From positions 1 to 34,311 of the forward strand of contig JAJPHY010000079.1 of the NCBI GenBank assembly GCA_021325015.1: 34,311 bases of DNA, given 5' to 3'. Source of the DNA: Actinomycetota bacterium. GTDB lineage: Bacteria; Actinomycetota; UBA4738; HRBIN12. This document shows, in pieces, positions 12,900 to 18,228 of the stretch. The translations under genes and the position numbers were made by a program. Every line of letters begins with the position of its first letter. Within the stretch, counting starts at the first letter, position 1. The notes beneath the pieces are model-generated. The model worked only from the letters and a program-made list of their open reading frames with translations. It ran no database searches and was not told the DNA's origin.

Positions 12900-14462
12900 T
12901 TACGACGGCGCCTTGGCGATCTCCTTCAGGAACTGCTCGTTGGACTTCGTGGCGCGGATCTTGTCCACGAGCAGCTCGAGCGCGGCCGCCGGCTCGAGCG
13001 CGTGGAGCACGCGGCGCAGGCGCCACACCAGGGCGAGCTCGTCGGCCGGCATGAGCAGCTCCTCCTTGCGGGTTCCCGAGGCCTCGACGTTGATGGCCGG
13101 GAAGATCCGCTTGTCGGCGAGCTGCCGGTCAAGTCGGAGCTCCATGTTCCCGGTGCCCTTGAATTCCTCGAAGATCACCTCGTCCATCCTGGACCCGGTC
13201 TCGACGAGCGCGCTCGCGATGATCGTGAGGCTGCCCCCCTCCTCGATGTTCCGGGCCGCGCCGAAGAAACGCTTCGGCGGATAGAGCGCGGTCGAGTCCA
13301 CACCGCCGGACAGGATCTTGCCCGACGCCGGCGCCGCCAGGTTGTAGGCGCGGGCGAGCCTCGTGATCGAGTCGAGGAGGATGGCGACGTCCATCCCGGT
13401 CTCGGCCAGCCGCTTGGCCCGCTCGAGCACCAGCTCCGTGACCTGGATGTGCTGGTCGGCCGGCTTGTCGAACGTGGAGTAGACGACCTCCGCGGCCCGG
13501 ACCGTCCGCTGCCAGTCCGTGACCTCCTCGGGCCGCTCGTCGACGAGCAGGATGATCACGTGGGTCTCGGGACTGCAGGTGATGATCCCGTTGGCGATCT
13601 GCTTGAGCACCGTGGTCTTGCCGGCCTTCGGCGGCGAGACGACCATGCCCCGCTGACCCTTCCCGATCGGCGCGATCATGTCGATGATCCGCTCCGTGAT
13701 CGCGGTGGGGCCGTGCTCGAGACGGAAGCGTTCGTGCGGGAACAGCGGCGTGAGCTTCTCGAAGTGCGGCCGCATCTTGGCCGTCTCCGGGTCGAGGCCG
13801 TTCACCGACTCGATCTGCAGCAGCGCGAAGTACTTCTCGTTGTCCTTGGGCTGGCGAACCTTTCCGGTCACCGTGTCGCCCTTGCGAAGCATGAACCGGC
13901 GAACCTGGGACAGCGAGACGTAGATGTCCGTCGGGCCCGGCAGGTAGCCGGACGTCCGCAGGAACCCGTAGCCCTCGGGCAGGATGTCGAGAAGCCCCGT
14001 CGCGGTGGGCGCGTTGGCGATCTCCTCCTCGCGCGCCTCCATCTCGCGCTGGCGCCGCTCCTCCCGCTGGCGCCGGCGCTCCTCTCGGGAGAGCCTCCGG
14101 CGCTCCCCGGGGCGACCCTCCGGACGCCCGCCCTCGGGACGCCCCTCGGGCCGCTCCGAGCGGGGTTCGGGCTCGCGCACCGGGCGCGTCTCGATCTCGG
14201 ACGCCGCCACCTCGCCGTTGGAGGCAGGCGCGGCGGCCTCGACGCCGACCGGGGCGGGCGCGACCGTCGCCTCAACATCGTTCGTGGCCGCCTCCGTCCG
14301 AGCCGCTCCGTCACCGTCCGCGGTGCGCGTCAGGATTCGCTCGATGAGCTCGGCCTTCTTCAGCTTCTGGTGCCCCTCGATCCCCAGGCCCGCGGCGATC
14401 GAGTGGAGCTCCGACGCCACCTTGCCCTCGAGGATGCTCTTGTCCATGGTCTCGGATGCCAC
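12900..14462 (-). CDS. rho: Transcription termination factor Rho
   Basis: Rho-[11 protein letters not shown], an Arg/Glu-rich insertion, RNA-binding segment [27 protein letters not shown], Walker [21 protein letters not shown]-loop/R-loop [13 protein letters not shown]...[32 protein letters not shown] start at 14462. Confidence 0.97.
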
Positions 14463-15125
14463 CTAGGCTCCCCCCTTCAGTTCCCGCTGGAGGGCGTTCC
14501 AGTCCTGATCGAACTTCTGCAGCCCCACATCGGTCAGCGGGTGCTTCACCAACTTCGTGAACACGTCGAACGGCAAGGTCGCGATATCGGCCCCCGCGAG
14601 CGCCGCCTCCACCACGTGCATCGGATGACGGAGCGAGGCCGCGAGCACCTGGGTCTCGTAGCCCTGGACCTCGTAGATCTCGCAGATCTGCCGAAGAGCG
14701 TACATCCCGTCGGACGCTACGTCGTCGATGCGCCCGAGGAACGGCGAGACGATGTACGCGCCGATCTCGGCCGCCAGGATCGCCTGGGCGGGAGAGAAGA
14801 CCAGCGTCACGTTGATCCGAACGCCGTCCTTGACCAGGCGGCTCCCGGCTTGCAGCCCCGCGGGGGTCATCGGCACCTTCACGACCGCGTTCGGCCCCAT
14901 CTGCGACAGCCGCAGGCCCTGCTCGTACATGGGGCCCGCCTCGGGCTCGGTGGTCTCGAGGGAGACGTCCCCGTCGACCTCCTGCAGGATCTCCTTCCAC
15001 ACCCGTTCTGGGTCCTGCTTCTCGCGCTCCACCAGCGTTGGGTTCGTGGTGACGCCGCGAAGCACGCCCCATCGGTTGATCTCGCGGATCTCCTCGATGT
15101 CCGCCGTGTCGAGGAACAGCCTCAT
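14463..15125 (-). CDS. fsa: Transaldolase / fructose-6-phosphate aldolase family
   Basis: MRLFLDTADIEEIREINRWGVLRGVTTNPTLVEREKQD, VVKVPMTPAGLQA, INVTLVFSPAQAILAAEIGAYIVSPFLGRIDD. ATG at 15125 overlaps the preceding gene's stop (ATGA). Confidence 0.93.
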   Translation of the reverse strand: MRLFLDTADIEEIREINRWGVLRGVTTNPTLVEREKQDPERVWKEILQEVDGDVSLETTEPEAGPMYEQGLRLSQMGPNAVVKVPMTPAGLQAGSRLVKDGVRINVTLVFSPAQAILAAEIGAYIVSPFLGRIDDVASDGMYALRQICEIYEVQGYETQVLAASLRHPMHVVEAALAGADIATLPFDVFTKLVKHPLTDVGLQKFDQDWNALQRELKGGA

Positions 15126-16081
15126 GCGCTCCGTCCTTTCTCCGAGTGTGCCGCGCCCGCCGTCGCCCCCGAAAGCGACGCCCGTTCGGTGACTCGGCCC
15201 ATGACCAGGTCGATCACCGCCGCGAGCGTGTGATCGAAGTCGTAGTTCGGGATGATCGGTACCCCGTGCGAGAGGGCCTGGCTCTTGATGTATCGCTGGA
15301 CCCGCCGGATGCTGTCGAACCCCTGCAGGTACCTGGCCGCGGGGCGGTGCACGTGGTCGACCGAGCGAGCCAGGAAGTGGCTCCGGTGGACGTCCTCGTC
15401 CTCGACCGTCACGATCACCGGGACCGCGAGCACCCGGTCCTGACGGTCCTCGATCTCGAAGAAGCCCGGGACCACGTGCGCGCCCTCGAGGATCATGCTC
15501 ATCCCCTCGACCGCTGCCCGCTCGAGCAGCGCGTCCAGGCCGACCGCGACCGCGGACACCTGCTCGCGGAAACCCACCACGACCGCGTCGCGCGTCGGCG
15601 GTTCCCGGAGTGCCTCCCCCGCCTCGAACGACGACCGGTACAGGGTCGGCATCAGCCGCTCGGAGAACATCGCCCGCATGACCTCGCGCACGGCGTCGGT
15701 CGCGACCACCCGCACGATCCCAAGGCGCGCCGCGAGCTGGGTGGCGATCGTGGACTTGCCCACCCCCGTGGTGCCGCCGATCAGGATCACGAGCGGGATG
15801 TCGAGGGCCTCGAGCTCGCGCCAGCGAAGGAAGTTCTTCGCATAGCGCTCGCCCGCGAGGTCCTCGATCACCTGCACGGCGAGGCCGAACAGCTCCTCGG
15901 ACGTGATCGAGGACACGCGCCGCTCGACCAGTCGCTCCTCGATGGACTCGGCGACCTGATAGGCGCGATAGGGCGACAGTCCGGTGACCATGACCCGTGA
16001 CGCCATCAGCCCCTTGGAGAAGGGGAACCCCGGCTCCTGGTCCGAGATGAGGATGTGGGGACTCTTGCGTTCCTGGCTCAT
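15122..16081 (-). CDS. 2-phosphoglycerate kinase family protein
   Basis: N-terminal ATP-cone-like region (PFSKGLMASRVMVTGLSPYRAYQVAESIEERL), then P-loop LVILIGGTTGVGKSTIATQLAARLGIVRVVATDAVREVMRAMFSERLMPTLYRSSFEA, typical of archaeal 2-phosphoglycerate kinases. Confidence 0.82.
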   Translation of the reverse strand: MSQERKSPHILISDQEPGFPFSKGLMASRVMVTGLSPYRAYQVAESIEERLVERRVSSITSEELFGLAVQVIEDLAGERYAKNFLRWRELEALDIPLVILIGGTTGVGKSTIATQLAARLGIVRVVATDAVREVMRAMFSERLMPTLYRSSFEAGEALREPPTRDAVVVGFREQVSAVAVGLDALLERAAVEGMSMILEGAHVVPGFFEIEDRQDRVLAVPVIVTVEDEDVHRSHFLARSVDHVHRPAARYLQGFDSIRRVQRYIKSQALSHGVPIIPNYDFDHTLAAVIDLVMGRVTERASLSGATAGAAHSEKGRSA

Positions 16082-17409
16082 CTGCCCTCTCGCCGAACCT
16101 TCGCGAGCTCGATCGTCGTCTCGAGCGCGTCACGAAGGTCATCGCGACCGTCGACCACCACGGCTCGGTTGTCGACGAAGACCACCTGCGCGCCCGCGGT
16201 CAGCGCCCGCTCGCAGGCGACGTCCACCGCGGCCGCCTTCAACTCCGTGAGGAGCACCTCGTACCCCTGCGCCCTCTCCAAGTCCTCCACTAGCCCGGCG
16301 CGGTCCGCCAGGCGGTCGCTCCACCCCACCACGTGCGCCCCGTGGACCGCCTCGAGAGCGGCGACCTGCCTCACGGCGACCGCTCCAGGCGCCGTCGTGG
16401 TGAAGAACGCGTCCTTGCCCTGCACATCGCCCAGCGGAACCGGAACGAAGTCCGTCACGACGAGCCGGGCATCACCGCGAAATCGCTGGACGTGGGATCT
16501 GAGGGCGAGGAGGTTCTCGGGCCCGGCTTGTGGGCTGCCAGCCATTGTAAGGACAACCAGGTCGGATCGCAACAGTCGATACGGGCCGAGGTATCCGCCG
16601 AGGTACTCGGGGGGCACGTCGGCCGGGACGACGAGGATCCCGGCGTCCCACGGGACCGGCGGCACCGAGGATCCGCTTCCCTCGAGGATCACCAGGCCCG
16701 CCCCCAGCTCGAGCGCGCGGTCGGCGGCCTCACGGACGTTCGTCGCGAGCGGGGCCCCGGCGAGCCCGCCACCCGACCGCCTCGCGCCGACCGTCGTGAC
16801 GCCGGTGGTGACGGCGTCCTCCAGATAATCGCTCGCCGCGTGCTCGCCGCGCCGAGCGAGCTCGATGAGTCGTTCGACGTCCACGGTCCCGGCGAGCGCG
16901 ACCTGCGGCTCGGGGGGGCCTCCCCGGCCCATGGCGACGACGACCGGTTCGTCGCCCAGCTCGGCTGCCACCCTCGCGAGCTCACCCGCGATGGCGGTCT
17001 TCCCGGTCCGCTTCCCCGTGCCGATGACCGCGACGGTCGGCGCGGAGAGCGGGGGCCCCCAGACCGGGGGGTCCAGGCGGAAGTCGGGCCCGAGGTACGG
17101 CAGGCCGGTCGCGAGCGTGACCGCGACCAGCTCCATGCGTTCGCGGTACCCGAGCACGGGCTCGTCCGACAGATCCAGGACCGCCTCCGGGCTCACCCTC
17201 GCGATCGCGTCCGCGAGCGCGGTCATCCGGTCACCCTCCGCCGGAATCGTCTCCACCCCAAGGTCGGGGAGCCCCTGAACCGGGATCTTCTCCGCGCCGC
17301 CGCGAAACAGAGCGGCGATCACCTCGTACCCCATCGTTCGCGCCGCCTGGATGCCCCAGCGCGTCACCGGGGGATAATGCTCCCCGTCCACGAGGGCGAG
17401 GACGTTCAC
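16078..17409 (-). CDS. Cyclic 2,3-diphosphoglycerate synthetase-like protein
   Basis: MNVLALVDGEHYPPVTRWGIQAARTMGYEVIAALFRGGAEKI plus P-loop TVAVIGTGKRTGKTAIAGELARVAAE and VVVAMGRGGPPEPQVALAG; 4-nt overlap with the downstream 2-phosphoglycerate kinase. Confidence 0.8.
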   Translation of the reverse strand: MNVLALVDGEHYPPVTRWGIQAARTMGYEVIAALFRGGAEKIPVQGLPDLGVETIPAEGDRMTALADAIARVSPEAVLDLSDEPVLGYRERMELVAVTLATGLPYLGPDFRLDPPVWGPPLSAPTVAVIGTGKRTGKTAIAGELARVAAELGDEPVVVAMGRGGPPEPQVALAGTVDVERLIELARRGEHAASDYLEDAVTTGVTTVGARRSGGGLAGAPLATNVREAADRALELGAGLVILEGSGSSVPPVPWDAGILVVPADVPPEYLGGYLGPYRLLRSDLVVLTMAGSPQAGPENLLALRSHVQRFRGDARLVVTDFVPVPLGDVQGKDAFFTTTAPGAVAVRQVAALEAVHGAHVVGWSDRLADRAGLVEDLERAQGYEVLLTELKAAAVDVACERALTAGAQVVFVDNRAVVVDGRDDLRDALETTIELAKVRREGR

Positions 17410-17442
17410 GACGACCCTCCCATCACGGGCGGCAGCGCCAAC

Positions 17443-18228
17443 CTAGTCGGCGTGCGCGCCCTGCTGGACCGGCGGCTCGAAGGTCCGGTAGTGCTGTTCT
17501 CCCGTCGAGATCGAGAAGTGGGCGATCACGCTCTCGCCGCCGAACGGGAACCTCCGGGTGATCTTGACCTCGTCGCCCTCGAACTCGAGGACGTTGTAGC
17601 AGGGCCTCGTGTACCCGCGAAGCCGCAGCGAGGACACGGTCCCGGCGTTGGCCACGTACAGGCTCTCCAACCGCCATACGTACGGGACGTGCTTGTGGCC
17701 CGACAACACGATGTTGACGCCCGCCGCGATGAGCTCCTCCAGCAGGTCCCCGGCATCGGCCACGGTGCTTCGCTCCCTGCCGGTGCCCGGGACCGGGATG
17801 AGGTGGTGGTGCAGAACGAACACCTTCAGGGCGGCCGGGACGGCGAACTGCTCGCGGATCCACGGGTACCGCTCGCGGCCGATCTGTCCCTCGTTCAGGT
17901 CGGGTTCGCTCGAGTCCACGCCGACGATCCGGACGTCCCCGACGTCAATCGCCCAGTGACGCGGGCCGATCAGCTCCTCGAAGTGCAGATAGCCCACGTT
18001 CCGGGCGTCGTGGTTGCCGGGGACGGTGTGCATCGGCGCCTGCACTCGATCGGCATAGGCGACCCAGTTCTTGTACTCCTGCCGATACCCCTCGTTCGTC
18101 AGGTCGCCGCTGCAGATCACCACGTCGGGGGCGAGCTCGTTCAGCTCGACGATGACCCGGTTCATCAGGTTCGGCACGAAGTAGGGCGAGCCGACATGGG
18201 GGTCGGAGATGTGGGCGATCGTGACCAC
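17443..18228 (-). CDS. Calcineurin-like metallophosphoesterase (Icc/cyclic phosphodiesterase-like)
   Basis: Motifs IAHISDPHVG, VVICSGDLTNEG, TVPGNHDARN, FVLHHHLIPVP, VLSGHKHVPYV. The ORF track extends to 18882, but that upstream part overlaps the plus-strand protease gene; GTG at 18228 is the likely start. Confidence 0.85.
   Translation of the reverse strand: MVTIAHISDPHVGSPYFVPNLMNRVIVELNELAPDVVICSGDLTNEGYRQEYKNWVAYADRVQAPMHTVPGNHDARNVGYLHFEELIGPRHWAIDVGDVRIVGVDSSEPDLNEGQIGRERYPWIREQFAVPAALKVFVLHHHLIPVPGTGRERSTVADAGDLLEELIAAGVNIVLSGHKHVPYVWRLESLYVANAGTVSSLRLRGYTRPCYNVLEFEGDEVKITRRFPFGGESVIAHFSISTGEQHYRTFEPPVQQGAHAD

Follow-up and report, generated by a model that had tools for sequence, protein, structure and literature searches.

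Cyclic 2,3-diphosphoglycerate (cDPG) has been described as a solute of hyperthermophilic methanogens only (PMC10690619). In Methanothermus fervidus, the pathway comprises a 2-phosphoglycerate kinase (2PGK) and a cDPG synthetase (cDPGS; structures 8ORK and 8ORU). A cDPG hydrolase activity has been reported in Methanothermobacter thermautotrophicus, for which a review names no gene (PMC1224877), and our literature search, with most subscription papers outside its reach, turned up neither a bacterial cDPGS nor a cDPG hydrolase gene. Here, we describe a gene cluster in a 34,311-nt contig of an Actinomycetota bacterium (JAJPHY010000079.1, referred to as the window) that, unlike the M. fervidus system, is found in a bacterial host and combines the enzyme pair with a metallophosphoesterase (MPE) in one operon. 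This operon is probably a bacterial module for cDPG synthesis and turnover, with the MPE subfamily as candidate cDPG hydrolase or 2,3-bisphosphoglycerate (2,3-BPG) phosphatase. The evidence lies in homology and conserved catalytic residues, in gene spacing like that of an operon, in co-occurrence across genomes and in linkage that is found in Bacteria as well as in Archaea; from it we infer what is made, in which direction flux runs, what the MPE acts on and the physiological role, which could be that of a phosphate or energy reserve or of a protective solute. The pathway itself is known, and what would be new is its bacterial form together with a candidate gene for the missing step.

Both enzymes of the M. 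fervidus pathway have homologues in the window. Although the window cDPGS matched none of the Pfam and NCBIfam models, phmmer matched it, among solved structures, to cDPG synthetases only, and the initial annotation of this gene as a synthetase was supported in that no unrelated P-loop proteins were among the best matches. Homology to the characterised M. fervidus enzyme is full-length and spans both domains (8ork/8oru; E=5e-88, 39% identity, query residues 2-435 aligned to chain residues 7-452). The match to 9sxb was similarly strong (E=1e-86); this sequence is close to the cDPGS of a Thermococci metagenome-assembled genome (L157), so its source is presumably a member of the Thermococcales. 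Residue roles were taken from the published M. fervidus work (PMC10690619) and conservation was counted over 98 sequences of the phylum. Residues K145, R146, K149 and T150 of the Walker A motif GTGKRxGKT and the Mg ligand D208 are identical in the window and in all 98 sequences. The residues E45 and K46, which contact 2,3-diphosphoglycerate (2,3-DPG) from the other subunit, occur in the window enzyme and 96 of the 98 sequences; the substrate contacts of the archaeal enzyme are retained. Among the nucleotide contacts, E404 is kept in the window and 98/98 sequences and T353 is kept in the window; K406 is invariant. The window enzyme differs from that of M. fervidus in the replacement of E305, considered below, and in carrying ARRS in place of CRRC. 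Of 160 cDPGS sequences, 110, including that of M. fervidus, have the CRRC cysteine pair, and the position mostly reads ARRA in the family of the window (L002-L024). Since reducing agents stabilised the M. fervidus enzyme (PMC12136491), loss of this pair may be relevant to oxygen tolerance.

The 2PGK matched the NF003259 model over nearly its full length (E=8e-88; model positions 5-297, or 293 of 306), which supports the kinase identity suggested previously, although the score fell short of the curated cut-off. A match to the ATP-cone domain PF03477 at residues 21-91 was weak (E=0.002) and below its cut-off. Judging from its genes, this bacterium is likely to synthesise cDPG; the earlier proposal that it makes cDPG or a relative is supported by sequence as far as the pathway genes are concerned, with cDPG as the predicted product.

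For the MPE, an alignment-based AlphaFold model was used (pLDDT 87; folding from the single sequence reached a pLDDT of only 52 and was set aside). The nearest solved folds are Rv0805 and GpdQ, with 20-23% identity. The fold and the metal motifs D-H, D, GNHD and GHxH are common to this class and the MPE, in which the dinuclear metal motifs D-x-H, GD, GNHD, HH and GHxH are present, and residues D9, H11, D42, N72, H73, D74, H140-H142, H178 and H180 are kept in 98-100% of relatives. By contrast, at approximately 20% identity to GpdQ and Rv0805, the MPE has a subfamily-specific signature, HHHxxPxPxxGRER, which together with GNHDxR is conserved in bacterial and archaeal members, including the MPEs of Methanobrevibacter, Methanopyri and Methanolliviera; in the window protein, loop 152-155 was modelled with low confidence. 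With its conserved arginines, the MPE would suit a substrate that is small and highly charged, as cDPG and 2,3-BPG are, and it appears reasonably probable that one of these two is the substrate. In the former case, the MPE would catalyse the same reaction as the hydrolase activity of M. thermautotrophicus.

Among 199 Actinomycetota genomes sampled, cDPGS and 2PGK were each found in 113, with 112 genomes carrying both, and MPE (counted at E<1e-20) was found in 112, with 111 of the 113 cDPGS carriers among them (exact tests, uncorrected for phylogeny). Gene neighbourhoods were surveyed at 80 loci, with denominators of 78 for MPE and 2PGK and 74 for rho and fsa. The MPE gene lies directly upstream of cDPGS in 64/78 loci and the 2PGK gene directly downstream in 65/78. 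In the 13 loci that lack a linked 2PGK, all of the Rubrobacter type (family f14), MPE and cDPGS are still adjacent and a divergent 2PGK (33-37%) is encoded elsewhere in the genome. As the gene order of the window recurs at loci from many families of the phylum, the locus is not a chance arrangement. The initial annotation had proposed the phosphoesterase as the turnover enzyme of the operon; its place beside the pair is conserved in relatives and it is also linked in archaea, and this linkage lends good support to a turnover role, with cDPG or 2,3-BPG as candidate substrate.

When 84,980 species genomes were scanned, the best 80 loci lay in Actinomycetota, Methanobacteriota (with haloarchaea), Thermoplasmatota, Bacillota, Omnitrophota and Neomarinimicrobiota. 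In Thermococcales (L142, L157) and Thermoplasmata (L171, L192), the three families are adjacent and the MPEs, 34-42% identical to the window MPE, have its motifs. Unlike in the window, these archaeal clusters have a two-domain MPE that lies downstream and a CBS-pair protein inserted before it, in the order cDPGS-2PGK-CBS-MPE, and have no fsa or rho; in a further Thermococcales locus (L162), the MPE is on the opposite strand. The CBS-pair protein is possibly a nucleotide-sensing regulator of cDPG metabolism. Of 130 Methanobacteriota genomes, 109 carried cDPGS, 109 carried MPE, 99 carried both and 11 neither, and in most of those sampled the MPE is not linked to cDPGS-2PGK. Haloarchaea (L187, L195) have the cDPGS-2PGK pair without MPE, which suggests metabolism of cDPG or 2,3-BPG in extreme halophiles. 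In a tree of 74 cDPGS sequences, the archaeal sequences were placed among those of Actinomycetota, and the deep branches had weak support; as the tree is unrooted, the direction of any transfer cannot be told from it.

Under the proposed mechanism, 2PGK would convert 2-phosphoglycerate and ATP to 2,3-BPG, and a cDPGS dimer would use a second ATP to join the two phosphates into a cyclic phosphoanhydride. Ring closure would follow the mechanism put forward for the M. fervidus enzyme, with phosphoryl transfer to the 2-phosphate followed by attack from the 3-phosphate. Opening of cDPG or dephosphorylation of 2,3-BPG by the dinuclear-metal MPE would then give phosphate and phosphoglycerate back to central metabolism. 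More tentatively, and with the balance of our judgement slightly against it, much of the deep-branching Actinomycetota might produce cDPG, and the GRER-motif MPE might be a cDPG hydrolase common to Bacteria and Archaea. If this were true, a full cycle of synthesis and release of cDPG could be assigned to genes, the hydrolase activity described in 1992-1994 would have a candidate gene, and cDPG would be a common trait of deep-branching, largely uncultured Actinomycetota that is present in the cultured genus Rubrobacter, which would suggest a phosphate or energy-storage role or a protective role beyond hyperthermophilic methanogens.

Several observations weigh against the proposed module. In cDPGS, the nucleotide contact E305 is Gly in the window and Glu in 72 of the 98 sequences. 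The 2PGK score of 294.7 bits is under the NF003259 cut-off of 343 bits; some archaeal 2PGKs encoded beside cDPGS also score below it (291 in L171, 287 in L187) and one passes at 411. The co-occurrence figures in the phylum are uncorrected for phylogeny, and 14/78 loci have no linked MPE, mostly with a more distant MPE paralogue elsewhere in the genome. Presence of MPE and cDPGS disagrees in 20 of the 130 Methanobacteriota genomes, no MPE was found at E<1e-10 in the cDPGS-bearing genomes of haloarchaea, Omnitrophota and Neomarinimicrobiota, and three of the four cDPGS-bearing Bacillota genomes had weak MPE matches only. Moreover, the Methanothermobacter hydrolase, as measured, is membrane-bound.

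The strongest alternative is that the pair makes cDPG but the MPE dephosphorylates 2,3-BPG, or cleaves cyclic nucleotides or phosphodiesters and regulates or accompanies the module, with turnover through reversal of cDPGS. Reversibility has been reported for the M. fervidus enzyme (PMC1224877), several cDPGS carriers are without a close MPE, and the nearest solved folds, Rv0805 and GpdQ, are phosphodiesterases. Taking into consideration, however, how distant the MPE is from both, its private GRER and GNHDxR motifs and its linkage to cDPGS in Bacteria and Archaea alike, even where 2PGK is unlinked, we regard this alternative as rather unlikely. That the enzymes act on other substrates, with the kinase phosphorylating another phosphate ester and the synthetase homologue forming a different cyclic or pyrophosphate compound, appears improbable. 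The kinase superfamily does include mevalonate-3-phosphate 5-kinase and the literature found holds no characterised bacterial member, but the window kinase scored 294.7 and 275.9 bits with 2PGK models against 79.4 bits with the mevalonate-3-phosphate 5-kinase model, cDPGS keeps the 2,3-DPG-binding residues of the crystal structure, and in Omnitrophota (L153) the pair adjoins a mutase-type apgM gene for phosphoglycerate mutase (PGM), the sole such locus.

It is also very improbable that the cluster represents syntenic carry-over without functional coupling. The thr genes and rho-DUF1385-prfA that flank the module do show joint conservation, but MPE-cDPGS(-2PGK) is intact outside this block, both in families f8 and f46, where no fsa or rho match is found nearby, and in archaea with a different gene order. 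The idea that 2PGK supplies 2,3-BPG, the cofactor of the 2,3-BPG-dependent PGM (dPGM; PMC2964296), with cDPGS as a side branch or buffer, can hardly be upheld, as no dPGM was over cut-off in 12 genomes with cDPGS, among them that of the window, while the apgM or iPGM model, for cofactor-independent types, gave a match over cut-off in 11 of the 12, and R. xylanophilus is reported to have an archaeal-type cofactor-independent PGM only (PMC2964296). The apgM-family protein of the window's genome is over the TIGR00306 cut-off; its best score was with the model of a phosphonate-pathway relative, below that model's cut-off.

With regard to layout, all five open reading frames (ORFs) are where the initial annotation placed them and run in the same direction, and the 4-nt ATGA overlaps that it described were read at both junctions (Table 1). 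MPE ends with TAG, followed by a 33-nt gap before the GTG of cDPGS, and the GTG of rho directly follows the TAG of fsa, also as described. The fsa and rho products are both over the cut-offs of their models (255.3 vs 246.0 bits for TIGR00875 in the former case). The only Rfam match over its gathering score in the window was a tRNA-Arg.

Table 1. Coordinates of the module and rho in the window, and of the CBS-pair gene at archaeal loci.
Feature	Position	Strand	Remarks
Metallophosphoesterase (MPE), candidate cDPG hydrolase / 2,3-BPG phosphatase	17443-18228	minus	261 aa; GTG start; PF00149; motifs GNHDAR, HHHLIPVPGTGRER, GHKH
cDPG synthetase (cDPGS)	16078-17409	minus	phmmer matches to 8ork/8oru and 9sxb; ligand residues kept
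cDPGS/2PGK stop-start overlap	16078-16081	minus	ATGA; read from sequence
2-phosphoglycerate kinase (2PGK)	15122-16081	minus	319 aa; NF003259
2PGK/fsa stop-start overlap	15122-15125	minus	ATGA; read from sequence
Fructose-6-phosphate aldolase / transaldolase-like FSA	14463-15125	minus	220 aa; TIGR00875
Transcription termination factor Rho	12900-14462	minus	TIGR00767, 627 bits; kept downstream of the module in relatives
CBS-pair protein between 2PGK and double-domain MPE	L142 4215-4652; L157 2402-2821; L171 8218-8649; L192 8230-8661		

Around the module lies a block of housekeeping genes (8246-29574), with argS, a lysA-like decarboxylase gene, hom, thrC, thrB and a glycogen debranching enzyme gene on one side and rho, DUF1385, prfA, prmC and sua5 on the other, and adjacency to fsa and rho is therefore weak evidence of shared function. 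While rho is found further downstream in 68/74 loci, it is probably a syntenic neighbour and nothing more. Coupling of the module to fsa, as envisaged initially, is not well supported, given this setting, the presence of fsa downstream in only 48/74 loci (absent in 26) and its replacement by a glpX-like gene in most Rubrobacter loci. In the Rubrobacter-type loci that were read, this gene lies between cDPGS and rho (L097 has none); it scored 247.7 bits with TIGR00330, for which the cut-off is 259.3.

Genes of the apgM family upstream of MPE in many relatives were considered as a supply of 2-phosphoglycerate. As they are over the cut-off of TIGR02535 ("proposed homoserine kinase") and adjoin thrC, they were not counted as support. 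Such genes stand at the place of thrB in, for example, G040 (C5:189044-190219), L085, L120 and L128, and thrB beside thrC has apparently been displaced by a TIGR02535-type gene in many Actinomycetota. Within the window, the lysA-like decarboxylase shares one open frame with a GNAT domain. A divergent ORF on the plus strand, with a trypsin-like/colicin-V domain, has a listed start at 18209 that overlaps the start of MPE (18209-18228), and translation of this ORF probably begins at an ATG further on.

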